A stretch of 64,000 nt of DNA from Tetraselmis striata (Eukaryota; Chlorophyta; Chlorodendrophyceae; Chlorodendrales; Chlorodendraceae). The stretch lies in contig VCJN01002978.1 in the NCBI GenBank assembly GCA_006384855.1, positions 1 through 64,000 on the forward strand. The letters run 5' to 3'. Positions 32,947-56,080 of this stretch are shown one piece after another. Numbering within the stretch: position 1 is the stretch's first letter; every line of letters starts with the position of its first letter. Under the pieces are notes generated by a model. It made no database searches and had not been told where the DNA came from. It saw nothing but the letters and a program-made list of their open reading frames with translations. The translations under genes were made by a program, and so were the position numbers.

Positions 32947-32954
32947 TATATAAA
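32947..32954 (+). promoter_or_regulatory. Possible TATA box
   Basis: TATATAAA in a GC-rich setting, followed by AGGGCATCACC. No gene is recognised downstream, so it may belong to an old LTR or be chance. Confidence 0.3.
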
Positions 32955-33543
32955 GGGCATCACCCGGCCCCAATTGCGGTACATGGCTGTGGTACTACCC
33001 ACTGAATAAGCTGTTAAATATGTCAAATTATTATCATCGGACATCGGATCAGTGCATGCCGTAGTACTGAGTGAGCGCCAATAATCGATTTGGGAGGCAG
33101 GCGATTCGGGTCATGTGCTGATGCGTGTGGTGTGCTGGGTGGCTGTGCCCGCCCTCGGGTCATGCCTCGCTCAACAGCGGGCCCACACGGCCACCACGCG
33201 TAAGCACTGAGCTGGGTAGCATGCAGTAGGGCTCGTGCAAGGGCAGCAAATGGATTCGCCCTTTGCGCGACAGAAAGCGGTCACTGACGACAGAGAGCTA
33301 GTTACAACAGCGAAGCTGGGCCCTCCGCAAAGTGTCACTCACGCCAGGCACGCTGTATTAAAGTTGAAATTTGCTACAACTGAACCAGGCTCTTTCTCTT
33401 GACAAGCTGTCTTTACCTGGGCATGCGGTAAGATTGATACGGGTGCCGACGTGGTTAAAATAACACTGCGAATCAGAACCATCCTGCTACGCCTGCCAGA
33501 GGCCACACGCAGAGGACGTTGCCTATATCGAATGTTGCTCTAG

Positions 33544-33600
33544 GTTGCATGCAAGCCCAATCCGAGGAATGTAATGAGGGTTTTTAGAATTAGGGTTCCC
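33544..33600 (+). repeat. GCATGCAAGCCCAA short repeat, copy 1
   Basis: Reads GTTGCATGCAAGCCCAATCC, then GAGG and AGGGTTTTTAGAAT. Related copies are at about 42050, 42719 and 43133. Confidence 0.55.
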
Positions 33601-34629
33601 ACAAAGGCTGCGTCAGCACACCTATGGCGAGGATGGCACTCTCATTCCAAACATTTCTTATAGTGTGGCGCCACAGTGGCTACACCGCCCTCTATGTAAT
33701 CACATCGAGTCAGAACACCGAGACCTTGGGGTATATGTGAGAGTCAACATTTCCTCATGCTGCTATTGCTCCCCCCCCCCCCCCCCCCTTTCTCTTCTGG
33801 GCCGTCTCGGTGCTGATAGACACTTACGGGCACACAATTCAGTGATATTCCGGTATTCTGCAGGGCATTACCCGGCCTTTGTGACAGTGTACATCATGCC
33901 CCAAGGTGCTGACACCTCCAAACACTGATGCCCTGCCGCGCAATCATCAGGGTGCCAGCAATCATCAGGGTTAATGGCTCTTATGGGCACTGCGCCTGGA
34001 TCAGGGCCCAAAAGGGCGGGTCATGTTCCTTGCTTCCGACTCCGACAATCACCACCAAAGAGGGCTCTTTTAAACGTGCGTCGACACCCTGCTTTCAGAA
34101 CACGTCTGCTGCGATATGGTGGTCTGTGCCCCAGTCCAGCCTGGCGTGGGCGTTTGCCCCCTCGACCGCAAAACAAGCCCGACCGACGCTACGGCGGTGC
34201 CTGGGAGGCGCCAGTCCCCCCCCCCCCCCCCCCACACACACCTTGCCCCTGATGAGCGTGACGCAAACACCATTGCCGCGGAGGAAGATACGAGCGGGGC
34301 AGCCGGTAGCTGCGGCGTTCCATTTGCTTCGGCGCGGGAATAAGAGCACCGCCAAGAAGATCCTGCCGTACCCGTAGGAGGACAGACCGAGACGGAACTA
34401 CACCAGAGCCATAGCGAACGTTCTCATAATTGGCTGCCTGGAACTAGTTGCATGAAACCCCAATTATTGGCTCATGTTTCGGGGTTCTTATATGCGCCGG
34501 AACCCGTAGACGTCCCACATGCACAACATATGCCAGAGCAAGACGCGGCGCTGGGCCGGTACATCATACGTTTGCGGGGTAGAATAGACGCCGCCGTAGG
34601 CTTTGCGTGTGGAAGCTGCCGCAGTGACG

Positions 34630-34664
<35 letters not shown>

Positions 34665-36898
34665 TGAGAAAGGGAGAAGGATAGCAAGAAGGTGGTGAGA
34701 GTGAGAAACGGGACGGCAGTGGCATGGCCCCTATTGGACCAGCGCGATCTCGTATTATCTGAGAAAAGGGCGATGGCCCCTAAACCCCGTAAACAGCGCC
34801 AACGCAGCGCGTGCATGCTTCAACTGCACACGCCACACCCTGTGAGGCAGGCGCAGTTGCACACTGGGAGCAGGGTGGGCAGGCGGTCGTGAGGAGCGAG
34901 TGGGAGGCATACGCCGCCTGCGCAGCGGTCGTGATACGATGGACCTACGTAGCCACAACTGCGCGCAAATGCGTGATAGGAAAGCCAGCGAACTTGCCCG
35001 ACCAGACACTTAACGGCGCGTACGAGTATTTTGGGGTTACTCGCCCGTCAACCGCCGAGACGGGCGCGAGCTCTGTCGTTCGGCGTGGGATCAGGGTGGG
35101 CGGCCTTGGGCGCTGCCGTGGGGATTTTGGGTCGATGTAACGCGATGTAGCCGTGGTCCCGTCCACAGTTCCCGTTTACTGCGCGGGTGTGCGGTGGTCG
35201 TTGCCGCCGGTCCACCGCCACAGCGTGACAGCTCCGCCCGGGCAAAAACGTACCACGGAGAAGGTTCGCGACATTCGGGCGGTTGGCCGGCTGAACAGGT
35301 ACCGTTACGATGCGGTGGCGTACAGCAGGACGACGTTGACGCCGGGCAGGGCAGGGCGGCGCTCGAGGATGGCACCAGATGGCGTTGTCTGTGTGGTCGT
35401 AGTGCGCCACATACTTCGTGATGCACCCTAAAATGACTGGCAAGCATTGGGGAGTGACGTCCGCAAGTAAAGTACCAGTAGCAGGAAAGCGAGTCGAATC
35501 GACGCACATGGCACGCTTGTCGCCAACCTGTTGCGAGAGGCGGGCCCAGTAAGGATTGCGGATGGGAAAAAGGGGGGGGGGGGGGGGGGATCAACTGCAC
35601 GGTGGCGCTTACTTGATTTGATGGCCCTAATCTGCCCAGTGCGCTGGGCTGCGGCGGCGTGCAGTCTGTGCCCCCAGCGCCTGTTACAGAGCCGGGTGAC
35701 AAACCGGGTGGCACCCAACCCTATTATTGCTATTTATCCCACCTCGCTCTCCGTTCCCCGACGATAGCTAGCTTTTCCGACCACCCATATCTGGCTATCC
35801 ACGGACACGGCACACGATACACACCCTGCAAGTGGCTGACCATCGGGCCGACTTGGCGCAGACGAGGTTAGGATGAGATCACAAGCGATCCGGCGATCGG
35901 GCGAGGGCGCGGCGCTGATGGTTGGGCTGGGAGCCCACGCGGCCACTGACGTGGGCTGCTGACGTAAGACTCAAACCGCGATATTAGGATAAAATGCATG
36001 GATTGCGCGGTACTATTACCGTACAAAAGATCGATAATCCGGATTTATCTGAAATCTGACAGTACCTTAGTACTTAACTGGGCATTCCTCACCAGCTATC
36101 TTGCAGGTTTGGTGCAATGTTCCCGGTATAGTTTCGCGTTCTCAGGAACGCGTTGCACCAGGACCCGCGCGCGTGGACGAGGCCGCGAGGTGGGTGGCCC
36201 GTCCGAAGTACTGTCCTGGCAGTACAGTACTGATAGCAACTGCGCGCTCTCGTCGCGGCAATAAAACCCAGAGTACTGGCCTGGGGCATGGAGGCGACTC
36301 AAGGAAACGCGCTTCCGCAGGCCCGCAGCCCGATCGGTACAGGTACTTAAACCGTCGGCCACCAGCGGCCGACCTCATAACACTCCGGATTCCCACCACC
36401 TCTTAACAGCCTCCATCACCGACGTCCTTCATTGGTCATCTCCCCTGTCAACCGACCACCGGGCACGCCCGGCGTCGACGATCAAGGACTCACGCCTCTC
36501 TGTGTTCGACCGCCTACGGAGCGGCCAGAGCGCTACCGAACCACCACTACCTGCAAGTCTCATCACAACGGCGAATATGGGGGTCGCTGGTGCGTCGAGC
36601 CACCCCGACACGCCTGCTTCTGCTCGCAATTAGGGTTCTCTGATCTCCCCTCTCGAGCCAGCCTTTGCCTACACGCCTCGCCCTCCCATAAGCATCTCGC
36701 CGATTCACAAGATTTGCCCAGATACTGGTTCCCTGTGCTGCTGCGTGCATGCCACGTCAGCGCAGGTCTAAATTAATAGAGACCACCTCTTCGTCCCGAC
36801 TCTCCTCGCTCCTCCACCATCACCAGCTATTCCGTGCACACAGTATGGGCGAGACTCGGTGCCTGAGTCGGTCCCCCTTTTTTTGGCTGTCGACGTAG

Positions 36899-37176
36899 GC
36901 GCTGACCAGGAGGCGCGCCTGAACGAGCTGAAGGCCAAGGTTACCGCCGAGGGTGGCGAGCTGCTCGCCAAGTCCGCCGTCGTGGGGCAGGACAACTCGC
37001 GCCTGCAGGACCTGCTTAACCAGGAGAACGCCCGAAAGGAGCGTCTCGCCGCCAAGCGCGCCGAGCGCGCCAAGAAGAAGAAGGAGGCCAAGGGCATCGT
37101 GGATGACGAAGAGGAGGAGGAGGAGGCTGTCTCCAAGAAGGGTAAGAAGAAGAACAAGAAGAAGAACGACGAGTAG
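36899..37176 (+). CDS. Terminal exon of a small charged protein
   Basis: An acceptor-like TAG at 36896-36898 precedes an open frame of about 92 residues ending TAG. It has a helical, coiled-coil-like part (SRLQDLLNQENARKERLAAK), a Lys run, an acidic run of seven Glu and a Lys-rich tail (KKGKKKNKKKNDE). The tail could bind nucleic acid or act as a nuclear signal. AATAAA follows at 37182-37187, a good polyadenylation signal. No in-frame ATG precedes it in this exon, and the upstream exon was not found. I do not recognise the family. Confidence 0.5.
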
Positions 37177-39979
37177 ATAGGAATAAACTACCGCTACTAC
37201 GGCCCGAAGCTGCGCGCGCTGCACTACTGCTGCAACACGACGACGCGATGTTCAGACGCCCACCGTGACGACGGCATATACGCACTAGCTTGTACCAACA
37301 ATACCGTAAGCGCTCCGCGAGTCGAGCTGTATGTAAACACGTATGATACTCTGTCCGACTCGTTCATCTGGTGTCCCGGCGCCGACCGCACGCCCAAACC
37401 ACCGCCAATCAGGTGCGTCACTACTCCCACGCGCCATGGTGTTCTGCGCCTGTTACAGAGCACATTTATTCACGTGCATGTCCCTGCTCTCTTACTCCTG
37501 TCATGCAACGTTGCGAGTGGTGCTTTCATTATCTCCGTCGAAGCGAACTGTTTAGGGTTTTAAACCTTCGCCCTACTTGCAACACCCCCCCCCCCCCCCC
37601 CTCTCAAAAAACTTATCTCTTGCTCCAAGGAGACATGACAGTATCGATATCCCTGTGCATCCACAAAAAGGTTGGGGCTGCATACGCTGGAACAAAGCCT
37701 CGGCTGCCAGTCTGAGATTGCGAGGGCAGAGTGTGTACGGATCGCACTGCTTCGCAATATGTGTGTCTCAGTTTGCACAGTCGCATGTGTTGATGCATCA
37801 AAACAATGCGCGCGGTGGGGGGCAGTGCTCTGATGTTGTGCACATGCTGACCCCGGAACCCTTCATGCCAATGGTATTGTTATTATGGTTGCAGCCGAGG
37901 AGGTGCGGGGGGTTGAGGAATGAGATAGCAGGAAGCCAAATTTCTATCTTGAAAAGCAGGCAATGCGATTTTGTGGGAGGGGAGGGGTCAAAGTGGAGTG
38001 GCACTAGCTAGTCCCAGTCCAATGCTGGCAGTGACAGGGCCACCCCACAAATGGCCTGTCACTGCTATCTGATCATGCATTTCTTCAGCAGTCTGTGCAC
38101 CACAGGGCGCTGCAGTTGGTTTCGCTGATTTGATGCTCCTGGCCAGTCCTGGCAAGACATTGCTGTGGCGTCAACATACAGCTGCCTTTTATTCATACAT
38201 CATGCTTGCCGCCCCCCCCCCCCCCCCCCCCCCCCGGAAATGATTCTGAGGTGATAGACTATTTTGTGGCTGACGATGCAGGGCATCAGACCGGTCGTAC
38301 ATTGGTATTCCAACACATCCTATGCATGGAATGCCCATGCTCATGTGCCTGCCCACGATGTATAGATTACATTTGTCATTTGGTATCATCAGAGGCATCA
38401 CAACATGCCGGGACATATGGCGGCTGCCCTGCAGCGGTCATAACGTCGTGGCAGTGGACGGTGGTAGGTGAGACAATGGACAATGACGCAGGGCCAAGAC
38501 ACACAATCATGCAGCGCATACAGTCATTGTCAAGGCCACATTTGGTTCATATGTATGCCAGAAAACTCGTGAGCAATATCATCATAATAGAGGTGCAGCT
38601 GTCCGATTGGCAGAAGCTTTTTTGGCCAAATCGTGCAAATCCAGCATTGACAATGGCGTTCCCAGGATGATGGCTTGAAGTCCTTAGATGGCAGCAACCT
38701 ATCGATACCGACGTATTTATTTCTGATGATGTATATGGATCACACGGCGAATTGTGACCCTACTCCGTGTGCAAAAGCATTGCGCCAGCCCCCCAGCAAA
38801 AATGAGTACATCTGAACTCTTAAGTGAGTGTATATCTGTGAGTAAAAATAACAATCGCCGCACAATGAGCAGTTATAGTAGAATTGCCGTTACAAAAATA
38901 CAAGTTACCGCCATCAATAACTTTGTTCCCTGTACCGGGGGCGAAATAAATAAGACTAGTGCTCGATGTGTAGGATGAATAGATAGTTGCTAGCTGCGCT
39001 ACATGCGAAGTTGGAATTCTGAGTTCGCGTTTTGGGCCCGAGTGGGCTTGGTCTCGTTGTGGGCCCTTATGATGCCGTGTACCTGTAGATAGCGGCGTGC
39101 ATCGATACCGAGTACAGCCCGAGTAGGCTCGCGGTTCCTCGACAATCAGAACGGTCAGATCTCCCTCATCAGGAGGATCGCAGGAGATGAATGCCCGCGC
39201 GGTAGGCAATAGCATCTACCACTTCAATTACCTGGCAACTAAAGGTCCGAAAGCCCGCGCGCGCTTGAGCTTCGCGTCGTATTTGATTACCGCGCCCATA
39301 GATATTTACCTTGAGTCCACCTGACTGGCGGCCCAACTCGCTCCCCCTGTTCGGTAGGCGCGGCGCTCCCGGTCTTACGCACTAGCCGCGCCAATAGTGC
39401 CCTTCGCTGATAGACCGCGGTAGCGCAGGCGAGCGCAACTTGCTGAAAGTCGCTGGTTATGCTAGTTTATTTGCCTCTGCGTGAGAACGTAACACCCACA
39501 GCCTCTACATAATCTTCAATCTTGGTAGTAGTTGCTTTTAATAAATTTCGACGAGTCGAATGGTCTTACCACGACCACATAACAGTAGCAGCGCGAAAAG
39601 TATGCGAGCAGACGCGCTGGCGGGGCTAGCCGCGCATGCGGCGCGTAAGCGTGCGCGTGACACTTCCCGCCCGCGCGCTGCGATGTAGTTAATATTGCGC
39701 CTGCGCCGCGTACACCTGTAGTGGGTACATGATGACGATACAGGGTATAAATAAAGTTCAATACAGGGTGTACGCTGGGCGGTAGTGACGTTGCGGTCAG
39801 CAGGGATCGAGTTACAGCATGCTTTAGTTCTGTACGCGCACTTGAGTGATAACGGCCATCGGTCTCAGCCGCCCTGCCGGACAGCGTCGCGGGCCAAGGC
39901 AGGCGGCGCTCGACCTTACGCAACACTGCAGAGATAGACTCTCGACGGAGGCCCAGCCGCACGGGGAAGTGCCGCCGCC
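37177..39979. other. Gene-poor intergenic region
   Basis: Contains C runs at about 37586-37601 and 38212-38236. The frame at 38206-38670 begins in the C run and shows no domain, so it is not annotated. Confidence 0.45.
37182..37187 (+). terminator. Polyadenylation signal AATAAA
   Basis: Lies six bases after the stop codon of the small charged protein exon, so an unusually short 3' UTR would result. Confidence 0.45.
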
Positions 39980-40505
39980 ATGGGGGCGTCCTCCTCGCAG
40001 CCGCAGGGCGCGAGCGCGGGGCAGGGGCCGATACACATCTCGCATGCCCACAACTGGCAAGAGCTCAACGGCGGCATGACCCCCGCGCAGATGGTTCACG
40101 ACCTGCTGGCCCAGCACGGTCTGCCTGTGTCGCCAATCAAGCGCCGCTCGGCGGGCTGGCACTTGCTCGCGCTTCGGGCTGAAGTTGAGGTGCGCGCCAA
40201 CAAGGGGCACGGCTCAGCTGGAGGCACCGGTGAGGCTCCATAGGGGGAGGGAGGGAGTGAGAAAAACCTTACAAAGATGAGGTGCAGGTGGTATTAGGGT
40301 GTCACTGTCTTCCAGTTGGGTATGCAGCTAAGCCCTCTCAACAAGGTCCCATTGTCGTATAGACTCTGATGTAGAACCTCTGGTGTGCAACCAGTTGCAC
40401 AATCTTTGGCAGTGCAGTTTCCTGAGGCGTAAGGTGCGCGGGCGCATGTGTGTGTGTGGGGGGAGGGGGGGGGGGGGGTGCATGCGTGCGTGCGTGCGTG
40501 CGTGC

Positions 40506-40555
<50 letters not shown>

Positions 40556-40625
40556 GTGCGTGTGTGTGTGGGGGGGGGGGGGGGGGGGGGGCGGGTGCAT
40601 GCGTGCGTGCGTGCGTGTGCGCGCG

Positions 40626-40664
<39 letters not shown>

Positions 40665-43600
40665 GTGTGGAGGGCATGAGGGGGTTTAGGTCAGTGGAGC
40701 AGCTGGCGGATTATGGACTTGCGAAGATTGGGAAGTCGCAGGTTGATATGCGCTGTACGCTGTAGTCTTGCACCTGCCGATGCTGCGTGTACCGATGAGT
40801 AGGTGGGCACTTTTGCCCTGATGTCGTGTAGCGGGTGTACACCCCAGCAAGAGCCCGTGCACGGCTGGTCAACGCCAGCGTCTTGACGGGTCTCACTGAA
40901 TGCCGGCATGTATGAGGGTGTCGATGAAAGGGATCCCCGGTATGCCAAGGTGCTGACAGCCACTGGACGCCGGCAGGAGGCGCGCTGCGTTGTCGCGGTG
41001 GTGCGGGATGAGTTCATGGATGAGGTCATCCGCGCCAGCAGCCAGGAGAGCTGCGGCCTGCAGCCGAGCTCCTGGTGCTATTCAGAGCTAAAGTGGGCGG
41101 TGGACATGCAGAAACCCGTGGTCGTGGTGCTGTGGCCCAACACGAGGTTTGTCCGAGGGCTCCCCCTTCGGGCTCATTTGGACGTTGGCGTTTGGTTGGC
41201 GGGAAGGCAAACGATAAGGGGGTGTATTTCTACAGTTTGTGTGTTTAGATACGTATTACTTACCCTTAACATTTACTCATGTTTGCGGATGGCAAACGTG
41301 ATGAATTGTTTTGTACCGACACGAGATACATTTGTGATGTGTTCTGATAGGTAGCAGGTAATCATAGTTTCCTTTAATTTTTGCAAGGGGGTCAAAAACT
41401 ACAACTTACAGAGACCCAACCCGTTGTCAAGATATGTACATACATATAACACAGTTTGATCCGTTTCGCTCGCACAAGATAATTCTACATAGGATTCCAG
41501 TGTCATGGCGTCACCTCCGTCAAATGCTGCTTGCTGCCTGGGAACGGGCGCTGGGCAGAGGTCTGCACCGCTTGGTCCGGTCGAGCATTGAGGATGCTGC
41601 GCCGTCCTGTGCCCCTGCGCCACCCGCAGAGACATCACGCCAGAGGTCATGCAGCAGCTGTCGCCGGAAATCCAGGTGGCGTTCCGGCACTGCACGCCCC
41701 TGGAGTGGGTGGATGAGGAGGACGGCGAGGTGCGGGCTTCTGCACAGATACGGCTGCGTCATCTTGCGCCCAGTCCCCTCACCCTCTCCACCTCACCGGA
41801 CTGCTAATTGGTTCACGTGTCACACTGATAACGAGTTGTTTTGCACCATATAATCATGTATTCCTTGCTGTATTTGTGATGTATTGTGATGGATGTCGTG
41901 TTTTCTTCATCTCGAGGGGTTTGCATACATGGATGCCGACGCGGTATTAATAAAAGCACTCCAAACAAGACCCTGCCCTACCTGTCGTTCACCATGTTTG
42001 ATGTCGACAGCGGGAAATGTGGCAGAACTGTAGGGGATGCTGTCACAGGTCGCATGCAAGCCCAATTTGAGGCTTAGAATAAGGGTTTTTATAGGTCCGC
42101 CGGCACCCATGTATGTATATATGCATATGTGAATGTATGCATGTATATGCATATACGCATGTATACATATGTGTGTATATATATATGTGCATACACACAT
42201 AATGTGTAAAATGTATGTGCATACACACACATATAGTGAATCCATCGCGTGGTCACGGGTTAAAGCTATAAAACGGCCAAACAGAGGCCGCTCACTCCGG
42301 TATGCCGGATGACGCAAGTGGTGCGATGTCACAGGTGGCGCTGAGCTTCGGCAAGCGCATCGTGGAGACCGTGGGCGGCGAGTACCGCGGCGAGGTCCCC
42401 GCGGTAACAGCCCTGCAGAATGCCGGCCTGGGCCACCTGGCCCACGTCGCCAGGGCCGACCTGGAGCTGTTCACGACCGAGGATGTGGCCAATGTAAGTC
42501 GCGCCGTGGCCCCCAGCCACCCCGTGTCCCTGACGACATCCTCTGCAGCGGCTGCCTGTTAATTCGCAGCCGCCGCGCTATGCTGCGCCGCACCCGTGCA
42601 TGTCCGGGTGCCAAAGCGATAGTAAGAACAATGCGAATTATAACCCGCCCTGCCTACCAGGGGTCAATTGCAGACAAAACTACTATAGGGGAACGTATCT
42701 GACATTTCTTTTTTTTGGGTTGCATGAAGGCCCATTTCGAGGCTATTCTATGGAATAAGCGTCCTGATTGTCGGTGCATCGGTACTCGCACTGCCTCATC
42801 TCCAGTATGCTGCCGCGTCTCAGCGTAGTTGGTTGTCATGTAGTTGGTATCATGTACGAAATGGCTGATTCCCTACTTCGATATTGGCTTTAAATGTCCA
42901 GAAATGTACGTTTACAAGCGCGGGATGTCCAAAAAGCACCTCTTGCACTATTTCGTATACCCGCCTCGTAGTTGGTCACGGGTGTACAGTACGGGCTACG
43001 ATGGCTGCGGCTGGTGATGCGCTAGCAAGACATGCCCTAGTCAGAACCCTACCTGCTGCCAGAGGTAAGACATAGTCGCTATATGGAAGTCATAATCTAC
43101 CGCGGAAGTAAAGCGGATGTTCGTACGTTAGGCCGCATGCAACCCACTTTGAGGCTTGTATTAATAGGCGTGATGATAGGGTTCTAATGGCGCCCATCAT
43201 GCCGCCAGCCTGGAAGGCTGCCGCTCGCCTTCTGCTGCATCATGGTGATGGGTGGGTGGGCAAGCGCTGATGGCCGGCGCCGCTGTGGCGCTTTGCCCCA
43301 GGCCGCGGATGAGGACTTTGAGGACCTGGGCGTGGTGCTGTCGGAGGCGGACCGTGCCAAGCTGGACAAAGCCCGGCAGCAGGCCGCTGAGGCGCTGAGT
43401 GCCCGTAGCCGGGCCGTCCTGCCGCTGGACGACGGTGTCTTGGCGGAGCGGAGCGCGCGCAGTGCGGACTCGAGTGGGCGCGGCCGCCGCAGCCGGCGGT
43501 TGGCCGGCAGTCACGTGGACGAAGACTCGCCCGTGTCCGAGTGCCTAGTGGCGGGCAACTGGGCCGGCGATGGCGACTCCATTCTAAGCAGCTACCGAGC

Positions 43601-46600
43601 CACCACACCGCGAGGCTCGGTAGATGGCGCTAGCAGGGCGGGCAGTGGCGCCGGCGGGCTCCATGTCTCCTCGCGATCCATTGGCAGCTCGGCTGGGCAG
43701 CAGCTTGAGCATGAGGAGGACCCCTCCGGCACGACGACGCCCCCCAAGGCGGCTGGCGGCGCCAAGGGTGGTGCAGCTGGCAGGCGAAGAAGCAGCTCCC
43801 TTGCGTTCCCGGGGACGAGCGGCGCGGGTGGCAGTCCTCTGCGCGTCAGCACAGCGAGCACTGCCAGTGAGTCGGGCGGCAGCGTGATCCTGGACATGGA
43901 TGGCTTGGAGGCCGGCATCTCCTCGCCATATGGCACCCCCCCCTGGACACCGAACGATGGCGACGGTGGCAGCTCGAGGTCGCCGTTTGCCATGTCGATG
44001 GGAGCGGACTTGGCGCTGCTGAGTCGGGTCGACCCGTCTGCGGCGCCGCATTATATGGACGATGAGGGCAGCGGGGTGCCAGCAAGCGGCACTGGCCGTC
44101 CAACAAGCAGCAGGGCGGGGCGCATGATCGGCGGCATCTTCAAGTCCCTCTCCTCCAGTCTCGCCAGTGACAAGGGCGGAAAGGAGCTGCCTGTCACGGG
44201 TCTGCGGCGAGCGGGTTCCGCCGCTGCAGAGGAGATGCGGCGCGCCGCCCCCCCTCGCGCCGGCAGCCCCTCGCACAGCTCCCCGCGGGGATCGCCGTTG
44301 TCGAAGCAGCCGCTCGAGAGGGCCGCCAGCCGCGCAGCGGATGCGCCGGCGCCGCAGGGCCGCGTGCAAGTGGCTCCGGCCCGCCGGCCTGGGCCCTGCG
44401 ACACCAACGGTGGCGTCCTCGTTGCGCGCCTGCACTCGCCCCCACCGCACGACTCCGAAGGCAGCCCGGACTGGGCCGCGCCAGCGGCTGAACAAGTGGC
44501 AGCGGAGCCGCGCGGGCAATACAGCCGAGGCGGACGAGCAGCGCGCTCATCACCGCCGCGGGCAAGTCTTCCGAAGCCGTTGGCCACCTCGCCTGACCCT
44601 GGACTGCACCGCGCACGCGCTCGCAGTGGCCGCGCTGCGCTCCGCCCGCTGGAGGACGATCTTGTCGCGCCAGCAGCCGCCCAGGTGACGGGCGGTGAGC
44701 CGTGGCCGGAGACCGCCGGCCGCCCCTCCCGGCCCGACATGCAGGACACCCTGTTTTCTGTCATCCCGGGGGAGCGCCGCCTCAAGCTGCTGACAAACGA
44801 CGCGGCGGATGCCGGGGCCGTGGAGCCCGCCGGTGGGGCTGGCGCGGGGACAGCGCTTCGCCGCTACACCCGCAGACTGAGCTTGGCGTCGGAGGCGGTG
44901 CTGGACGGCGCCACGGGGCAGTGGCTGACTGGCCCCGGGACGGACGCAGACACGGGCCCGCAGGTGCTGAAGCTCGACGGGGTTCCCTGGGTGGGCGAAG
45001 CAAGTGGCGTCCCCGCGCACGCCGAGGAGGGCCGCTTGGGCCAGCCGGCGCCCGCCCCGGGCGACAACCCGGGCGACACCCCGGGCGACAACGGACCTTG
45101 CGCCGAGGAGGAGGACGCGCTGCCCGGAAGCAGCAGCAGCAGCAGCCCGCCTGTATCGCCAACCCGGCGCATCGGCAGCCCCCAACACCAGGACGCATTC
45201 AACATGCATGACGGTCGCCGCGTAGGGCGGCTGCATGGCGCCCGCCCAGGGTCGGCCGCGGTAAGACGCATGACTGCCCGATGTACACCCCACGTCTCCA
45301 TCAAAGGCATGAAGACAGACATCACAGCGTCCCCTGCGTGCCCAGTGGCCTTCATAACGCTACCCGGTGCGCTCATGGTGTTCTTGTTTGTGTCCACGTA
45401 GACTCGCACCGAGCGCAACCAGGTGTTTGAGAACATGGACCGCTCGCTCGAGGGGCGCCCGATCGTGGAGGAGCTGATCGGGGCGCAGCTCGGCGGCCTG
45501 GTGCACGGCCTGTGCTGGGAGCTGGGAGTCTCCACAATGGAGGAGCTCCACGCCGTCAGTGCCTCGGACCTCACTGCCATCCGCGCATCGCACCAAAACA
45601 GGCAGAAGTGTGCCCCCCCCCCCCCCCCCCCCCCCTTGACCCAACTCCAACAGCGCCCTTTCCTGTTCTATGTTCATTATCTCCTTTCATTTCATTTCCA
45701 ATAAAGCCGGACGCCCTACCTCAAAACAGTCCGATATGTGGTCCGATTTCAAGGCTTTTCTTCCATTTTAGTTTACGCAGTGTGTATATATATAATATAA
45801 ACAATAACACAGGTTGGGATGTTGTTCTTATTGCATGTCTAACTTTTTTGTTTTTGTGTCATTCTCAAGCATGACATTACATTAATCATGCATATGGTAT
45901 GGTATGGTATGGTATGGTATGGTATGGTTAAACCGTCGGGCTCGCTGGCGCAGCGGTAGCTAACAGGCATCGCCGGATGACCTCGAAGTTGACCAGCTGA
46001 GGCCCTAGTAGTAGTGTATACTGTTATTGCTAATAATATTATAGCACAGACATTACTGCTATGCTTGAAGAGTTATAATGTTACTAGATGTCGTTACCCT
46101 TGTATGCTATGTTATTATGCTGGCATGTTCTGTTTGCTTCGGCATATAATAGTGGATTGATTTTGCACAGTTGTCACTGTGAGGGTAATATAGAAGCGTG
46201 GTTGATCTGCCGAGGCAATGACTGCTCTGCACCTTTTTGGTGGATGCGCAGACTTGCCAAGTTCTTGGCGAGGTCACAGGCGGGCCACCAGGCTCCCAAG
46301 GCGGCGGTAGTGGACCTGGACGGCAGCCTTGCCTCCGCGCTGGCGGCGTACAACCTGTCCGAGCTAGCCGAAACCTTGCGCGGGCACGGCGTGGCCGCGA
46401 TCGATGACTTGGTGGAGCTGAGCGGGGCGGAGGTTGCGGCCATTGTCGCGGAGGTTGAAGGCGCCGTGGGGCGCACCTCCTTCCGGCGCGGCCGTCTGGC
46501 CAGCCTGGTGGCGCAGTGCAAGGCGCAGGCGCTGCGGGAGATCCGCCCGGCCAGCGGCTTGCGGGGCCCACAGGAACAGGTGACCGTCCGCCTTTTACAC

Positions 46601-48742
46601 GTGATCACGTGTGTGTGTGTGTGTTTGTGTGGTTGAACACTCCGCTCCGTAAATTGTTAAGAGTGGCTGCAATCCTCCGCTCGTGCCATATCTCGAGCAA
46701 CACGTGCACCATCCTAATCATGACAATGAAGTACTGCCCGATGCTCATGTGCTTACGGGTGCCGGCGCACCGATAAGAACCCTTGTTATACGCCTCATCA
46801 CATTGGGGTCGCAAGCAACCTGAGAGACTGAACAGTCGCAGTAGTTCCGATGTGCTTTTGTCCGCATCTGACGTCTGACAGGTAGGGCAGGCTCTTATCC
46901 GCAGCGGTCTTGTCACGGCACCAGCACCTGAACGGATGCCGACGCACCTACTAGAACGAAACGGTTTAATAAGACTTTTTGGGGTCGGTAACCGCATTTT
47001 CTTATATTTCATTGTATATTCGTGGTGATTGCGCATTCAAACGAGCCATGGAAAGCGGCCATTTCTTGGAGGGTGGTTTCTTGTAGCCGCGCCGGCCCCC
47101 GTACATGAAGTGGTATGCGCAAGTATCGGGCATGGTCGCTCCGTAAGGGCACTGCAACCGGTCCATGATGCTCCGCCAGACCAGATCCTGCTGTCATATG
47201 CCTGTTGGAACGGATGAAGGACGGATGGCCTGTGGTGCCCCGGAGAGAGAAATGAATGAATATATACACAGAGAGAGATATATGTATATATATGTACATA
47301 AATATGTGTATATATGTATATAATATAATACATATAGATGTGTATATAGATGTGCATATATAGTATATATACATGTATAGTATGTATAGTATGTATATAG
47401 CTGAGCGCAGGTGTGCCGGATGTGGGCATCAGGGGTATTCAGGAGAGCCCTTCTCAGTGTTGCTTTAATGAGGTTTTTGACAGCACAGACATTAGTATGC
47501 AGAGTAATCCCCGCAGCCGCTCCAGTCTGCTTCACACTGACCACCCCATGCCGACACTCTCACTGACCGGGCGCCCATGCGAACAGTCTGACGCAGGCAC
47601 GGATCTCCCGCTGTCCGTTCTTGTCCGGCAGCTGGATAGCAAGGCCTCCGCCCAGGTAAGTGGTACCTGGAGACTTGTCGCTGCTGCCCCCACCCCCCCT
47701 CCCCCGCCCTCTGGGACAGCGTCGGGAGCGGCACTGCTGTTAAAGTTGCTGTTGTTGCGCCTCATTGCAGGGGGCGCTGCGCAAGCTGGCGGGAGTCATC
47801 GTGTCGCCGAGCGTGCGTGAGCACTTGGTGCAGACGGACCTGGTGCCCAGGCTTCTGCGCGTGGTGGAGAACAGCTCGCACGCCGCGGTAGCCCCGCTGG
47901 CGGTGTCTGTCCTCGCAACGCTGGTTCGGCTGGAGGACAGGTGCCTGGGGCAGGTGGCCGCCAACCGGGGCTCCGCGGTGCTGGCGGCATTCCTGAGCCG
48001 CACTGCCATGTCGGCGCCCGGCGATCCGGCCGGCCAGCAGCAGGCGCTGCGGTGCATCACGCAGCTCATTGGCGGCATGTTGGACAGCGACGGCGCTGCC
48101 GACATGGCCGACGACCTGCACGCCTCCAAGGCGGTGCCGGCCATCTTCACCCTCCTCGAGCGCATCGGCCCCTCGGAGTACGGCCACGCGCACGGGCTGG
48201 TGAAGAGCCTGCTTCAGCTGGTGGGCCGCCTGACGGAGGAGCCGCGCTTCCGGGAGGAGGTGCTGAGCAGCACCGGCGGGGTGACCACGCTGGTGGAGAT
48301 GCTGCCGGAGGGCAACGCCGGCGGTGTCGTCCCGATGCCCGCGGCGCAGGGCGAGCGGGTCCGCATGGCGCTCGCCATCCTGGCCAACCTCTCCCAGGGG
48401 CCGCACTGCCCGGAGTGGCACGTGGACGGGCTGCTCAGCGCGGGGCTGCTCCCCCGGGCTCTGGCCCTGATGGAGCAGCCCGGGCGCGCGGAGCACGGGG
48501 CCGCCGCGCAGCTGGTGTCCAACCTGTCGGCCTCGCCCGGCGCGCGGAGTGCGCTGAGGGATGCCGGCGTGGTGCCGGCGATGACGCGGATGCTGAGCAG
48601 CAAGGCAGCGCGCGCCTCGGCCCGCCGGGCGCTCAGCGCCATGGAGGAGGCGGTGCCCGACGACGTCCAGCTCGCCGCGGAGGGCGGCGCACAGTCACGC
48701 CTCCCTCGCGCAACTCGTCGGGCGCAAGGGACAGACCGGTAG
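39980..48742 (+). CDS. TIR - SAM-like - SAM-like x2 - armadillo protein, inverted SARM1-like architecture
   Basis: Ten exons: 39980-40229, 40695-40741, 40977-41146, 41630-41729, 42335-42493, 43302-45260, 45402-45607, 46252-46579, 47503-47655 and 47771-48742. All intron phases close, giving about 1447 residues. The start MGASSSQ is an N-myristoylation motif, so membrane attachment is likely. TIR spans about 17-188: strand [10 protein letters not shown], core [22 protein letters not shown] with Glu136 at the site of the NADase catalytic glutamate, then KPVVVVLWP and a tail like that of SARM1 ([10 protein letters not shown]...LEWVDE). A SAM-like module lies at about 205-270 and a disordered linker at 270-895. 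Two more SAM-like modules lie at 905-975 ([19 protein letters not shown]) and 990-1055. Armadillo-like helices occupy 1125-1430. In animal SARM1 these parts hydrolyse NAD+ and occur as ARM-SAM-SAM-TIR; here the order is reversed. NADase activity is inferred. AATAAA lies at 48814. Confidence 0.78.
40449..40672. repeat. (GT)n, (GCGT)n and G-run microsatellite
   Basis: Alternating GT, TGCG and G-run blocks in the first intron of the TIR gene. The many ORFs here are repeat translations only. Confidence 0.85.
42051..42096 (+). repeat. GCATGCAAGCCCAA short repeat, copy 2
   Basis: CGCATGCAAGCCCAATTTGAGG followed by AATAAGGGTTTTTATAGG, in intron 4 of the TIR gene. Confidence 0.55.
42110..42235. repeat. 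AT/ATGT-rich microsatellite
   Basis: Degenerate ATGTAT and ATACAC units in intron 4 of the TIR gene. Confidence 0.75.
42719..42760 (+). repeat. GCATGCAAGCCCAA short repeat, copy 3 (diverged)
   Basis: GTTGCATGAAGGCCCATTTC then GAGGCT, in intron 5 of the TIR gene. Confidence 0.45.
43133..43190 (+). repeat. GCATGCAAGCCCAA short repeat, copy 4
   Basis: CCGCATGCAACCCACTTTGA then GGCTT and AGGGTTCTAATGG, in intron 5 of the TIR gene. Confidence 0.5.
45893..45927. repeat. (TATGG)n microsatellite
   Basis: About seven TATGG units in intron 7 of the TIR gene, just before a tRNA-like sequence. Confidence 0.85.
45941..46010 (+). ncRNA. tRNA-like sequence, possible SINE head
   Basis: GGGCTCGCTGGCGCAGCGGT matches an RNA polymerase III A box (TGGCGCAGCGG), and a weak B-box-like GACCTCGAAGT follows about 35 bases later. 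The acceptor stem (GGGCTC with GAGGCCC) pairs only in part. It sits directly after a TATGG repeat inside an intron, as a tRNA-derived SINE or a decayed tRNA might. It is not a confident tRNA gene. Confidence 0.3.
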
Positions 48743-50969
48743 TCTTATCGCGCCAACAGCGGCCGCGCCCCGGGTTGTAGAGGCTCTGTCGCGTGAGGCA
48801 TTCATCACAGCAAAATAAAGGCCATTGTCACCAGCAGGGGCACTGCACTACGAACAGCGTAGCAGTGTCGGCTAAACGATGAGAATTGAAACGAAAATGT
48901 ACACCACAAAGTAAAGCCATCCCGCTATGCGATGAGGGGCGGGCCTCGCCATTGCCTCGCCTGGAGATTGCAACCACCGCATATCAGGAACCTGGACGAC
49001 GGATTTCTCCTGGGGCGTTTTCGAATGTGGCATAGAAGGCCAACTCTATCATTTGGTAAGGCAGCCGCGGTATTGAAACCAACCGAACATCAACATCGAA
49101 TGCTATCTTATTGCAGATGAAAGCGCCGGGGTGCGTCGCGCCGCTGTGCCCCCCCCCCCCCCCCCCCCCCACATCGCCCATGGTGTGCTCACGTGCCGTG
49201 TGGCGGCTCGCCTCGGCAGTTATAACATCTATCAGAATGCCGGATGTACTCGAGCGCCAGCTTATTTGTCGTCCTACAGGTGGAAAGGCAGCGAGTTGTA
49301 GTAGCGACTTCTCTCACAGCAGAAGTAAATGCAAGACGTTTGTGGGCTGCTGTATATGATCTGTGTTACGGCGCGCAGCAGCGCCGGATATAAAGCAGAA
49401 ATCCGGCGGCGGCATCAGCATCCCATGGTCTAGAGCTGCAGGAGCAGGATGGTAGTCTACTACCTACTCATACATACCGGGAGTACTCGAGCGGGTGGGA
49501 GGCCAGGTAAAGTAGGTAGCCGCTATTGGTCATCAGGGTATTATTATACCGGTATCTGTCCTCAGCAGTCGCTAATGGGCAATCAGGGTACCGGTACATA
49601 ATCGCTATGAATGAATGTATCGCTAATGTGTATCGATACGGATTACATAGATAGATATTCAGATAGGAATAAGGATAGATAGACTAGAAGTAGTCGATGT
49701 AGTGTATATATGTGATTATTGGTACAACCGGTATACGGGGGACCCCGATAGTCTGTCGAGGAATCAAGAAGAGACACTTGAACGATACAGCAGTAGACTG
49801 GCTTGGGTCAATGGAAGTCTGGAGCTGAGCAACAGCTCAACAACAGCCAGCAAGCGAGCATGCGCGGCGCACGAGGGCACTCATGAGGCACAACACGTCC
49901 AGGCGCAGTGTAGGGAGAGAGCATTGTGAGAGTGAGGCGGGCAGCATGCATCCATCATTACACAACCATAGAATGGTAGGCTTCGGCCGGGCGGGGAGGG
50001 CGGGTTAACACTTCTACACTTGACTTATGTGGGTTTTCTTCATAATTGTCCTCTTGTGCATGACTGTAATGGCTGAGGCAATAGCTTGCCGGCCAATGTG
50101 TGCTTGCAGGACATCACCACCAATGAATGATATATAACCGCCCAATTGCATCTTTTGCAGTGCTTTGACAATGCTTTGTAGTACATGTGGATGCAGCAGG
50201 AAAGAAAAAAAGGGGAGCTCATCAAAAAAAGGGGGCACCTTAAACGATACATCAAGTTGTGACGGCCTAAACGATAAGAAATGAAGTGCTAGCACATGCA
50301 AGTATATATATGAAATGAAGTGCTTGCCTTTTTCAGTCTTAGTTTAGGCGAATATTCATCTCACCGAATGCGAAGTACTAGAGGTCCGCCTTGCATCCCC
50401 CGTAAGGTCTCTTGTGCAGCACAGTAAATTATTTATTGCCGACTATATTTAGATTAGCGACAAATGCCTGAGGAATTTTTTTTAATATTGGAAAATCTTC
50501 GTGCTACCTGTACTTCGTGCGACCCCATAGTTCAGTATAGAGACCAACGGCCTGTATTCTAGTAGCGCGCATCGTACGAGCCAGCGCAGATGTCGCCGTC
50601 ACGTCGGGCCGCGCCGCGCAACGTGGCTCGCCATATGTGAAACCCTCGCCGCCCGCTTCGGTCAGCCACCCAGGGAGCCGCTAGAAGTGCACTCCCACCC
50701 GCCAACACGTGGTGGTTGACAGTGCGTGCTGGCCCTTCTCGTCAAGCACCTGCTTCATTCAGCCGCGGTCGCAGCCAGTACATTGTGCATGTGACAAGCT
50801 CCGGGGTGGTGCCGGACCTTGTGCCATCGGCGCGCGCTGCCGCACTCGAGAGTCTCGACACCGCCACGACCTGCTTCTAGGGGCTCTCAGAGCCATCGGC
50901 CGCGCTCAAAAGCTCTCAGCGGCACCCCTCTCTGCCCCCCTTCGTAGGCGGCACGCCGCGGAGGGGTGC
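48743..50969. other. Intergenic region
   Basis: Contains the polyadenylation signal AATAAA of the TIR gene (48814-48819) and a C run at about 49150-49170. No convincing coding frame. The stretch before 50970 may hold the 5' UTR or a first exon of the next gene, since its frame stays open from 50709. Confidence 0.5.
48814..48819 (+). terminator. Polyadenylation signal AATAAA of the TIR gene
   Basis: Lies 71 bases after the stop codon at 48742. Confidence 0.5.
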
Positions 50970-53900
50970 ATGTCGGCGCATTCCTTGGCCGCCGGGGGTC
51001 CGAACCAGGCCGCAGCGGTCCGCCGCCGCCTACCGGGCATGCTGCGCTGCGCCAGCGGTCGGCCAACTCGCGCAGCCATCATGTGGTGCCGGATGCCGCC
51101 CAGCTCCACCTCCTCCCCCGCCGCCCAGGATTCTGGCCCCACCAGCAGGGCGCCCGCGCGCTGCCACAGCAGCCAGGCGGCAGATGCTTCCGCGGCGGAC
51201 GCAACGGAGCGGAAACCGGGTGGCGACGAGTACGCGTACGCGGGTACGGCAGCCGAGGCGCTCGCGGGGCGCCTGGAGTCCCTGGGACTGGCGTCGCTGC
51301 CGCCGCTGGCACCGCCCTGCGCGCCGCTCGCGCGCCAGCGGTTCCAGATCATCGACCAGGCCGACATCCCCGGAGACGCCACGGTGGTAAAGTCATTGCT
51401 GTGGGAGGCGAGCGGCATCGGCCCGGTGGCGGTGGTGCTGGGGGTGCATCGGCGGGTGGGGCGCGCCAAGCTCGCGGCGGCGCTGGGGCGCGAGCGGGCG
51501 GGGTGGCTGCGGCTGATGGAGCCCGGTGCAGCCGAGGCTCTAGCGGGTGCCTCGATGGGCAACGTAAGTCGGTTGGCCACGCCGGCGGGGCGCTGCCCAC
51601 GGTGGTGGACGCCGGGTTGGTGGCGGCGGGGACGGGCAGCTGCGGCGCCGTGTACGGCGGGGGCGGCGGCGAGGGCTGGGAGCTGCGCCTCGCGCTCGGC
51701 GACCTGCTGTCCGTGAGCGGTGCGACCGTGGCCGACATCGCGGTAGGCGGCGACGATGACCCCGCCCCATATTTCGACAGCATCGAGACGGGCGGTGCCG
51801 CCAAAGGAGAGCCGATCGCACCAAAGCCTCAATCCCACCCGCCCCAGCCCCCCAGCCCCGATGGCTTTCCTACCTCAGCGGCGCTGAGGAAGGCAGCAGC
51901 TAAGCCAGACGGCGAGGCGGAGGTGAGCGTTCATCACTCATGGGTCCGCATCAAGTATCGATTGAGTATGTGGATTCAGGAGGGGTTCCTCGGGGGGTGC
52001 TTATGGCCGGCTCGGGCGTAAGGAGCTGATTCCTAGTAACCAAAAAGTGCAGTTGTTAAGCGTCCACCGGCGATGCCACTGCAAACCTTTGCGTTTCGGC
52101 GCTCTGAGCTCTGAAGTGGCTGCTCCTCGCTGCAGTCCACTACCAGCAAGGGCACGCCGCACCAGCCGCCCCATGCCGGGCAGTTTTGGGAGGTTGTCAT
52201 CCCGGGGATGAATATCCCCATTGATGCCGACCAAACTGCCGCCGTTAGGGCGGTGGAACCAGGTGCAGGTATAGATAGGGACGGGCTAAGGCAGGCCGAT
52301 GTGGGCCGTTGAAGGGCGCCAGCGGCGCGTTGCGTTGTTGCACCACACGTTCACAGTGAGGAGGGACTGGCGGAGATGGATGTTGGGCCAAATGGTGACC
52401 ACTCCGTTCGCACCAGCACTGGCTTTGCTGGCGCCTTGAGGATTTTACCGCCTCGCCTTCCCCCCTTTGCGCAGGTGCGAGCCCTGCTGGCGGCCTGTGA
52501 TGCTCCAGCGGAGGGCGCCGGCATGCGCCGCCTGTTGGACGCCGGCACCGACCAGAGCGGCAAGACGGCGCTGCACATGGCGGCGTGGCGCGGCTCGGTG
52601 GGCGCGGCGGCGGCGCTGCTGGACGCGGGCGCGGACCTGGATGCGCACAGCACCGGGCAGGGCAACTACGGCAAGACGGCGATCTTCTACGCGCTCACGC
52701 GCTGCCGGGACGACATGGTGGCGTTCCTGCTGGACCGCGGCGCCGACGTGCTCATCTGCAACAACAAGGGGCAGGTAAATTACCCCCCCCCCCCCCCCCC
52801 CCCCCCAACACACACACATTAACACCTCCATCCATTCCCACATACTCCACCTCCCGATGACTAAAGTGCTATCCGCCCAGCTCCAAAGCGGGGCGCGTCC
52901 CTGGCTTTTGGTCTCAGCAGCTGCAGCTTTAGGAAGTGCCAGCGAGACTTCCCCTCCCATATGTCTACCGCAAATTGCCTTGATCTCCGCGCCGATGCCG
53001 CGAGGGCCTCCGTCGTTTTACCCGTTTGTGCGGTAGCAATAATGACATGTCTGCGGCTCATTGCGCCTTACTGTAGCGCCTCCCGCAACGCAACGATAAG
53101 GCCGGTGGGTGCAATGCTGTCAGCGCTGCCGGTGCGCTGCAGCGCTGCGTGATTAGACCCCGGATCAAACCTCCCGGTGATTCCAATTCATACCTGTCCG
53201 GTTTAGCGCCTGAGATGGTAGAAGTTTTCATCGTCCGGCAGCAACTACCCGCCTGTTTTTCTAGAAGGTGTTGTTGTGTTCCGACCGCACGCCGCTGCGC
53301 AGACGCCGCGCAGCATTGCCGCGAGCCACGTGGGGCCGGAGACAGTCGCGGCGCTGGAGGCAGCAGAGGCGGCGCAAGAGGCGGCGGGCCGCCGCTGGCG
53401 CAACTTCCGCGCGAGCCACAGCGACGGCAAGGCGTATGGCGACCTGGACCCGCGCTTTGGGCTGGACGCCGCCAACGGCTGGGCGCCGGGGGCGGCTGCG
53501 GGGGAGGGGGTGCCGCAGGGCGCCAAGAGCGTGCGGCCGACATCGCGGGAGAGCCGGCAGGCCCGGCAGGCCAACCGCGCCGTCGCGCCGCCGAGCCCTC
53601 GCGCGCCGCCGTTCCCCTTCCTGAGCCCCGCCTCCAACGTGTGCCACCTGGTGGGCGTCGTCACCTCCAAGCGGCGCATCGGCCGTGCGCTGGCGTTTGT
53701 GAACATCGTGCCGCCGCCGGACGGCGAGTCCCCGGCGGAGTGCGCGCCCTTCGTGGGCGCCGCCTGCGCGAGCGCGGCGGACAAGTACGCGTGGCGTGGC
53801 GGGGGGCCTGGGGGCGGGGCGCCGCTGGCGGTGCAGCTGATCATCGGGCGCACCGTGAAGGAGCGCCTCGGGCTGGCGGGCGCCGCGGAGGCCATCAGGG

Positions 53901-55006
53901 GGCTGCACGTGGGGCAGCTGCTGCACGTGGTGGGCCGCCTGGGCGTCAACGGCGAGCGCGGGGCGGCCAACCTGCGCGATAACTCCACCCTGGACGTCGT
54001 GGTGTCGGAGTACCGCGTGCTGCAGGAGCGCTTCCGCGTGCCCGCCCTGCAGCAGCCCGCCGACCGAGCTCCCGAGCGGGACGGGGGGGATGCCCGAGAT
54101 ACATCGGCCGCGGGGGAGGCCTCAGCTGCCGGAGAGCGCGGCGACGGCAGCGTGGCGACGATGCCCGCGGAGCAGCCGCCGGTACCGGCGTTGGCCCTGC
54201 GCGACGTGCTGCCGCTGCGGGGTTACCCTCGCGCTGTGGGTGCGCCCGTGGCGGTCGTCGACTCGGAGGCGGGGATGGCGGGCTTCGCGGCGGCGGTGGC
54301 GCAGGAGATGGCGCGGCAGCGGGGCGGGTCGGCCGTGTCGGGGTGCCTCGGCCTGGACTGCGAGTGGGCGCCGGGCCCCGACGGCGGACGGGCCAGCCCC
54401 GTGGCGCTGCTGCAGCTGGCCACGCCCAGCGCCGTCTACCTGCTGGACCTGCAGAGCCTGTGCCGGCCGTGGCTGGAGCCGTCCGCGCAGATGAATGCGG
54501 CGGAGGCGGCGGTGGAGGCGGCGCTGCGCCCCATGTTTTGCGATGCAGAAGCAACGGTGGTCGGCTTCGGCGTCGAGTCTGACCTGCGCAAGCTGGCGCG
54601 GTCCTTTCCGCACATGCCGTGCTTCAGTGCGGCGGCCGGCGCGGTGGACGTCCGCACGCTGCTGGCGCTCACCTCGCCCCAGGTGTCCATGAAGCAGCGC
54701 CGCGGCCTGCAGGCGATGGGCCTCTCCCAGGTGTGCCTCCGCGTACTGGGCCGCCCGCTGGACAAGAGGCAGCAGTGCTCCGACTGGACGGCGCGGCCGC
54801 TGAGCGCCGCGCAGGTCGAGTACGCGGCGCTGGACGCCGCGGTGCTGCTGGCGCTGTTTGCGGCTCTCGCTGGGCGGCCTCCCGTTTGCAAGTGCGAGAC
54901 GGACGAATGCGTGCAGCGCTGCGTGTGCGGCAATGCGCACCTGCGCCGCACTGTGTCTACACGGCAAAGCGACGAGGCGGCTAGCAGCTCCTCAGTTGCT
55001 GGCTAG
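50970..55006 (+). CDS. YbaK deacylase - ankyrin - OB-like - DEDDy 3'-5' exonuclease fusion, apparent frameshift
   Basis: Exon 1 runs from the ATG at 50970 to 51922, then come 52136-about 52247, about 52475-52774 and about 53265-55006. Several internal boundaries do not close in phase. The N-terminal 75 residues are Ser/Ala/Arg-rich and could be an organelle transit peptide. A YbaK-like domain that would clear mischarged aminoacyl-tRNA follows (VVKSLLWEASGIGPVAVVLG; then GALPTVVDAGLV and WELRLALGDLL). Its halves lie in different frames, with a one-base shift between about 51563 and 51595. The third exon encodes ankyrin repeats (GKTALHMAAWRG; FLLDRGADV). The last exon has an OB-like part (VGVVTSKRRIGRALAFVNIV; GLHVGQLLHVVGRL) and a DEDDy exonuclease: LGLDCEW, GFGVESDL and YAALDAAVLL hold the D, E, D, Y and D residues. 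The protein probably acts on tRNA or other RNA. Confidence 0.7.
52783..52806 (+). repeat. Poly-C tract at an intron start
   Basis: Begins eight bases after the donor GTAAATTA that follows the ankyrin exon. Confidence 0.8.
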
Positions 55007-56080
55007 CCGTGACTGTGCGCTCGAGGGCCCGCGGCCTGGTGCCTTTGACGACATACAAATCGCTATCCGTCTACCGCGGTTAGCGATACCCGGTGCAGTC
55101 AAAACTGCACCGTCGTGCAGTGACCACAAAACTGAAACCCAGGAGCACCGCAGACAAAACCAACAGCAATGGAGGTTCTGGGAGGCTAGAAGGGCTCTTG
55201 GGGCAGCAGGCTTTTAGTTTTGACGGCACGTGCGGGCCGGCTGGTCACAATGCACCGGCGGTGCATTGAGCCGCTCCGTGACCCGTACGGCCCCCACCCG
55301 CGCACCACCCGCGTGCTATGGGGGAAGGGCCGTCGTGGCCTTTGTGAGAGATATAACGGCCGACGCTGGGCGTGTATGGGTCCGTGCCAACCACAGGCAG
55401 CATATAGAGGGGGCTGTGCTTCGCGGAGTGCTCTGGCCATGCTCGCGCATGGCCTCGAGTGCGCGAGTCGATAACACCCCGACCTACCCAACCCAATCAG
55501 CGGGAAGGCCGGCGTTCTCACCGCCATCGCGACCCCCCTACCCACCCGGAGACCCCAAGGGGGGGGGGCGACTCGGGCCTCCTTGCTACTCGGGAAGAGA
55601 ACGGGCGGCTTCTGTAGGCGCACGCCGACGAGTCACGAGGCTAGTCATTAAAGAGCTGCCTTTTCCGTCGAATTTATATCGGCGGTGTCGACCCCGTCGA
55701 CTTTCCAGTGGCGAGCCGTAATTCTTATATCGCAGCGCAACCTCCGTGTAGCCTTGAGGTAATCCTTATGTATGTCTCGTCTGAGTGAGGGAATCATGAT
55801 GTTCCTGTCGATGCATTGTATTTTGGCCTATTCGATATCATCTCATAGCAGTCATTTTCGGAGGTTGACTTATAGTATGGTCAACGCTGAATAGTGTGGT
55901 CCATATCCGGCCGATAGTGCCAAGTCGGTGACTGCGGATCAGCGATGGAGTCGTTGTAGGGTATGCCCACCCTGCCAAATCTAGAGGGGTAAGTTCGCGT
56001 GAAGATATCATACCCGTATACGGGTATTCTTGAAGCAGGACGAAAATCCACAGTAGTGGGCGGCACATGGCCTTTCCGAC
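55007..56080. other. Intergenic region
   Basis: No supported gene. A 9 bp stem hairpin (CAATGCACC-GGC-GGTGCATTG) lies at 55248-55268. Confidence 0.45.

Follow-up and report, generated by a model that had tools for sequence, protein, structure and literature searches.

A predicted TIR-SAM-ARM protein of the green alga Tetraselmis striata with its parts in the opposite order to SARM1

We examined a 64,000-nucleotide stretch of DNA (hereafter the window; positions 1 to 64,000 of contig VCJN01002978.1, assembly GCA_006384855.1, forward strand) from Tetraselmis striata, a chlorodendrophyte green alga, and in it a multi-exon gene at 39980-48742 whose predicted product carries an N-terminal TIR domain, SAM-like modules and a C-terminal armadillo (ARM) domain. 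The spliced product is identical, letter for letter, to a public T. striata protein of 1390 amino acids, TSEL_035033 (EukProt record jgi/Tetstr1/447675/TSEL_035033.t1; hereafter P0001). The order of its parts, TIR-SAM-(long linker)-SAM-(SAM?)-ARM, is supported, weakly so for the SAM parts, and runs opposite to that of SARM1 within one gene; the initial annotation of the locus had proposed this reversal, and the placement of the TIR, SAM-like and ARM regions bears it out to the same degree. The gene is real, probably a single one and possibly one that has gone unnoticed, and its resemblance to SARM1 is likely to be a convergent design. As to function, we lean, at a little under an even chance, towards an independently assembled TIR switch, clustered by its SAM-like modules and controlled by its ARM domain, that would cleave nicotinamide adenine dinucleotide (NAD+) or a related nucleotide.

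The N-terminal TIR domain and its glutamate

Compared by hhalign with a profile built from six solved TIRs (SARM1, RPS4, Roq1, RPV1, TLR2 and TLR1), the N-terminal region gave 91% over 100 columns with a score of 43.6; none of 200 shuffles scored above 23.0, and none of seven other pieces of P0001 above 17.7. The isolated domain matched Pfam TIR_2 (PF13676; 18.2 bits, E 0.0037). Pairwise alignment z-scores with BLOSUM50 were 7.7 for Roq1, 5.9 for SARM1, 3.4 for RPS4, 2.7 for RPV1, 2.0 for TLR2 and 1.9 for TLR1 (with BLOSUM62, 7.2, 5.6, 4.9 and 3.7 for the first four), and none of 400 shuffles reached the alignment score of SARM1 or Roq1. The SARM1 match spans residues 30-147, whereas that with Roq1 is short (101-158). 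Given these scores and alignments, the domain is, by sequence comparison, a TIR, and apparently not specifically a SARM1 TIR. The earlier suggestion that its C-terminal part tracks SARM1 closely is only partly true; Roq1 scores at least as well. Against three Tetraselmis TIRs the z-scores (BLOSUM50) were 2.1, -0.8 and 2.3. In the TIR frames read at three loci of the same genome (L002, L003 and L008), Asn-Cys replaces Trp-Cys ahead of the conserved Glu. A Pfam scan of the alga's own genome (224 Mb searched) placed PF13676 on at least 13 stretches, none of them in the window, and gave no match to PF01582; the lack of a PF13676 stretch in the window fits a TIR split by introns.

Residues W103 (41073-41075) and E107 (41085-41087) occupy the alignment positions of the Trp and catalytic Glu in all six solved TIRs. 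A catalytic-type glutamate is kept, as had been claimed, at residue 107 of P0001 rather than at position 136. The Trp-x-x-x-Glu motif that it forms with W103 is not specific to SARM1. TLR1 and TLR2 carry the same Glu in the same alignment, and according to part of a survey (PMC7075850) the frequency of E75 need not correlate with activity among TIRs, so the presence of this Glu does not identify an NAD+-cleaving enzyme.

Besides the Glu of TLR1 and TLR2, several results weigh against the reading we favour. The TIR_2 score lies under the curated gathering cut-off (18.2 against 28 bits), and P0001 as a whole has no Pfam TIR match. The Arg that follows the first strand in SARM1 and plant TIRs (SYRR, NFRG, SFRG) is absent here (SHAHN). 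An AlphaFold2 prediction run without an alignment on the TIR and SAM-like module 1 failed (mean predicted local distance difference test score, pLDDT, 40); the order of its elements is partly TIR-like, with strand A and helix B missing, and Foldseek with this model returned no match at E <= 0.001. A sequence search of PDB chains with P0001 returned none at E <= 10.

A TIR that is divergent and under the Pfam cut-off, that lacks the Arg after its first strand, that has a longer stretch ahead of the catalytic helix than the TIRs compared, and whose WCxxEL motif is common to TLR1 and TLR2, might instead be catalytically dead and act by homotypic binding only, like TLR adaptor TIRs, with the SAM-like modules and ARM domain completing an adaptor. 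Both W and E are nevertheless kept, where Asn replaces the Trp in the three other Tetraselmis TIRs compared, and enzymatic TIRs are described in part of one study as needing fusion to oligomerising modules (PMC7282519). We consider such a scaffold a serious alternative, if a rather doubtful one.

SAM-like modules, linker and armadillo domain

The SAM reading rests mostly on the match of module 2 to Pfam SAM_TNK (17.5 bits, E 0.0043, or 0.0036 in a second scan; cut-off 25) and on the likeness of module 2 to module 1 (z 5.6, with 1 of 400 shuffles as high). SAM_TNK matches two of the three modules at E <= 10, the match to module 1 (E 0.15) being bettered by two unrelated families, ATPase inhibitor zeta (E 0.026) and DUF6950 (E 0.0075). 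Module 3 matches SAM_EPH (E 0.0048) only within a longer piece; as an isolated module its sole match is RPN2_N (E 0.026), and it scores z 2.0 against module 2 and shows no resemblance to module 1. All the SAM matches in Pfam are below cut-off, and AlphaFold2 confidence was low across the modules. Compared singly with the SAM domains of SARM1, the modules gave z <= 1.9, within the range of ARM-piece controls (up to 3.2), and 0.2% by hhalign. A three-module profile searched against PDB found 6 chains at E <= 10, none of them a SAM protein by name, and a PDB sequence search with the SAM region gave chance-like matches only. Thus, of the three SAM modules initially described, sequence comparison lends weak support to modules 1 and 2, and module 3 is doubtful.

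Between modules 1 and 2, in exon 5, lies a linker of about 615 residues rich in Ser, Pro and Gly, in agreement with the linker of some 600 residues that had been noted. The C-terminal region (exons 8-9) is predicted to form an ARM superhelix, as had been expected from its helices; structure prediction, one of the checks first suggested for this locus, thus recovered the ARM fold, while the TIR model failed and the SAM-like modules were of low confidence. The best Pfam match of the ARM region is ARM_ARMC5, below cut-off, and SARM1 is absent among the best 50 structural neighbours listed (two listings). The only precomputed Pfam label of P0001 is PF24768, ARMC5 armadillo, and for this reason its TIR may have gone unnoticed.

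Vac8 and a Chlamydomonas radial-spoke chain are among the structural neighbours of the ARM domain, a shared fold that shows no function. The N-terminus of Vac8 is lipid-modified, and N-myristoylation follows the pattern MGxxxS, which the MGASSS start of the algal protein fits; the myristoylation start previously proposed is thereby retained as a motif match. One might accordingly picture a housekeeping scaffold of a flagellate, serving membrane, trafficking or axoneme, with a lipid-modified N-terminus like that of Vac8, in which the ARM domain carries the function and the TIR survives as a remnant. Over some 100 columns, however, the N-terminal region still has the score of a TIR, and there is no specific pointer to flagella; we judge this explanation improbable.

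Gene model, constraint and copy number

The locus was initially described as a single multi-exon gene with its exons in phase, which agrees with the identity of P0001 and with GT-AG borders in 8 of 8 introns. P0001 gives nine exons and 1390 residues in place of the ten exons and about 1447 residues then counted; reconstructed from the length difference, the surplus would come from the 30 codons of 40887-40976 plus about 27 at exon 8. The exons are listed in Table 1. Codon log-odds were trained on exons 5 and 9, and all seven remaining exons scored positive. The start ATG of exon 1 stands in GCCGCCATGG and is the first ATG downstream of an in-frame stop. The putative last TIR helix (residues 162-173, exon 4) appears only in the low-confidence model.

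Table 1. Exons of the gene and a downstream signal (positions in the window)
Feature	Position	Strand	Content	Evidence
Exon 1	39980..40189	+	MGASSS start, TIR from strand A through helix B	identical to P0001 residues 1-70; codon log-odds +27.0, +10.1 (two parts)
Exon 2	40977..41146	+	TIR core, motif SSWCYSEL	identical to P0001 residues 71-126; codon log-odds +21.6
Exon 3	41630..41729	+	C-terminal TIR part (...LEWVDE)	codon log-odds +22.5
Exon 4	42335..42493	+	probable final helix of the TIR; SAM-like module 1, first half	codon log-odds +41.9
Exon 5	43302..45260	+	SAM-like module 1, second half (to ~43400), then linker	haplotype dN/dS 0.43
Exon 6	45402..45607	+	SAM-like module 2	codon log-odds +49.1
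Exon 7	46252..46579	+	last part of module 2, perhaps also SAM-like module 3	codon log-odds +86.4
Exon 8	47587..47655	+	start of armadillo region, first helix of modelled superhelix	codon log-odds +14.8
Exon 9	47771..48742	+	armadillo domain and stop codon	
AATAAA	48814..48819	+	~70 bases past the stop; possible polyadenylation signal	

The intronic stretch 40887-40976, just before exon 2, looks TIR-like by eye and is non-coding by codon usage (-3.0 bits; exon 1 at its annotated end has +10.1). An alternative splice beginning exon 2 at 40888 was rejected: it needs a non-AG acceptor, is unused by the public model, and adds codons of non-coding usage. It scored below the accepted splice with home-made profiles of TIR (4.4 against 7.1 bits) and of SARM1 (3.5 against 5.6 bits), with hhalign (38.5 against 43.6) and in alignment z with SARM1 (4.1 against 5.4), and it had no TIR_2 match where the accepted splice had 18.2 bits (the pieces being cut differently, with limits of E 1 and 10). 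A PDB sequence search with its TIR returned no chain. On the other side, it outscored the accepted splice with two of four panel TIRs (L002 and L003).

A second haplotype of the region is found on contig C1309, of which a 30 kb stretch aligned at 95-97% over most of 25273-37875 and of 42775-55285, the latter position being its end; it has 5000 N where exons 1-4 would lie, and the comparison covers exons 5-9. Substitutions amount to 0.65-2.5% in the regions taken as these exons against 3.5-5.1% in the four intervening introns, exonic indels are of 3, 12 and 3 bases, and GT-AG is kept in all four comparable introns. The ratio of nonsynonymous to synonymous substitution (dN/dS) is 0.35 over 1171 codons with zero stops, and by part (exon 5 in Table 1) 0.12 in exons 6-7, from 8 changes only, and 0.34 in exons 8-9. 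Owing to this ratio, the absence of stops and the low exonic substitution, exons 5-9 look constrained as protein.

Because exons 1-4 appear to hold the TIR and exons 4-5 to hold SAM-like module 1, the joint between exons 5 and 6 is the one least protected by domains. Intron 5 (45261-45401) contains no in-frame stop ahead of a TAG that its own acceptor supplies, and its retention would yield a TIR-SAM-linker protein without the SAM2-ARM half. Annotation could thus have merged two adjacent genes, one coding for TIR-SAM-linker and ending at this TAG (45399-45401), the other for SAM-SAM-ARM and starting at the ATG at 45435, which stands in GAGAACATGGAC, a start context that we take to be good. Yet the codons of intron 5 are non-coding-like (-12.8 bits), the 33 bases (11 codons) of exon 6 ahead of this ATG are coding-like (+4.7), 3 of 5 haplotype changes in the intron would alter amino acids, the two genes would be only 33 bases apart, and the public model P0001 joins them. 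We therefore hold two genes to be very improbable; on these sequence features the locus is probably a single gene.

Protein searches of the genome (7 and 26 candidates scored) gave only the gene's own locus, C1309 and ARM-like matches at E >= 0.09, so no second copy was seen. In public protein collections, P0001 was the sole relative of the spliced sequence at E <= 1 among 2186 candidates, and was found again among the 7988 candidates sharing most words in a further search; one search returned P0002, an unspliced piece resembling exon 2 of the window with its flanks. These searches require shared 5-residue words, which distant relatives may escape, and among the candidates scored they returned only this gene. 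P0001 belongs to a cluster of 5. NCBIfam gave one match on P0001, unrelated and below cut-off, PADLOC gave none, and two pattern scans of viral contigs gave 1 and 13 pattern matches, none of which was confirmed.

Ten of the 28 open frames listed in the window were scanned with Pfam. A 1805-residue frame at 7277-12691 (+) is that of a Copia-type retrotransposon, with zinc knuckle, GAG pre-integrase, Pol_BBD and SH3 matches above cut-off and the integrase core just below; it also holds a C-5 cytosine DNA methylase stretch (PF00145, residues 886-955, E 5.2e-10, 39.7 bits). A 402-residue frame at 644-1849 (-) has a phage-integrase N-terminal SAM-like domain above cut-off (33.2 bits) and a weak integrase core below it (20.1 bits). 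Downstream of the TIR gene, a 594-residue frame at 53222-55003 (+) has a 3'-5' exonuclease domain (PF01612, E 3.2e-18).

Domain order, possible mechanism and known systems

The reversed order had been put down to a protein either independently built or circularly rearranged. The second possibility fails because a circular permutation cannot reverse domain order: permuting ARM-SAM-SAM-TIR gives TIR-ARM-SAM-SAM or SAM-SAM-TIR-ARM, never the reverse. The first is in keeping with SAM-like modules that show no detectable SARM1 likeness, an ARM domain nearest to ARM_ARMC5 and a TIR that aligns as well with Roq1. The reverse order, the SAM-like modules without SARM1 likeness and the TIR that is not SARM1-specific argue for separate assembly rather than rearrangement, the last two being absences of signal.

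In the switch that we favour, the parts would have been assembled independently of animal SARM1. The N-terminus, perhaps myristoylated, would hold the TIR at a membrane, and the C-terminal ARM domain, with a peptide- or ligand-binding surface, would keep the protein quiet or sense a trigger. Upon release the SAM-like modules would cluster, and the clustered TIRs would make up an active site for the cleavage of NAD+ or a related nucleotide, the drop in NAD+ or a signal so made leading to cell death or defence. The order of the domains does not seem to stand in the way, since TIR-SAM fusions of several TIRs are reported, in part of one study, to cause Glu-dependent nucleotide accumulation in planta (PMC10242710), and since attaching the SAM of SARM1 at either end of plant TIRs is said, in a passage of another, to enable NAD+ cleavage, the C-terminal case being given as unpublished (PMC7282519). 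The same part of the former study describes some TIR-SAM fusions as inactive or weak (PMC10242710), which counts against such a switch. A more specific version appears unlikely to us, namely a mirror image of SARM1 in which a membrane-tethered, independently built NAD+-destroying switch, its N-terminal TIR controlled by a C-terminal ARM sensor through SAM clustering across a 600-residue tether, would bring about self-destruction under metabolic stress or virus infection. Should the TIR be active, the ARM-SAM-TIR logic of SARM1 would have arisen more than once and independently of domain order, which would reveal what such a switch really requires, and a single-celled alga would offer a testable TIR death or defence pathway.

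A literature search on SARM1, TIR and the TIR-SAM-ARM architecture, which did not extend to most papers behind a subscription or to the PMC13142454 supplements, found no description of the algal protein. A 2026 preprint presenting an atlas of TIRs mentions, in one section, a few SARM1-like green-algal TIRs from EukProt v3 (PMC13142454); they share the EukProt source with P0001, and that section gives neither species nor domain orders. Amphioxus TIR-SAM proteins have the natural TIR-SAM combination in common with the algal protein, with transcripts recovered and no ARM mentioned in the part of the source concerned (PMC2575513). The plant NAD+-cleaving TIRs Roq1, RPV1 and RPS4 share an N-terminal TIR and an SSxWCxxEL-like catalytic helix with it, Roq1 giving the highest z-score of the panel (7.7). 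Plant TNL proteins differ from P0001, in which neither NB-ARC nor LRR has a Pfam match at E <= 10.

Like SARM1 and C. elegans TIR-1, the algal protein unites ARM, SAM-type and TIR parts and has the Trp-x-x-x-Glu motif; its TIR alignment with SARM1 (residues 30-147, z 5.9), which includes WP...PExMQ, is longer than that with any other member of the panel. SARM1 has a mitochondrial targeting sequence where the algal protein starts with MGASSS, and is ordered ARM-SAM-SAM-TIR where the algal protein is reversed, with a linker of about 615 residues and two or three SAM-like modules in which no likeness to those of SARM1 could be detected. SARM1 itself is described, in part of a published account, as an autoinhibited enzyme activated by nicotinamide mononucleotide (PMC9780360). 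The same kinds of parts in the opposite order suggest, at the level of sequence, that such a switch was built more than once.

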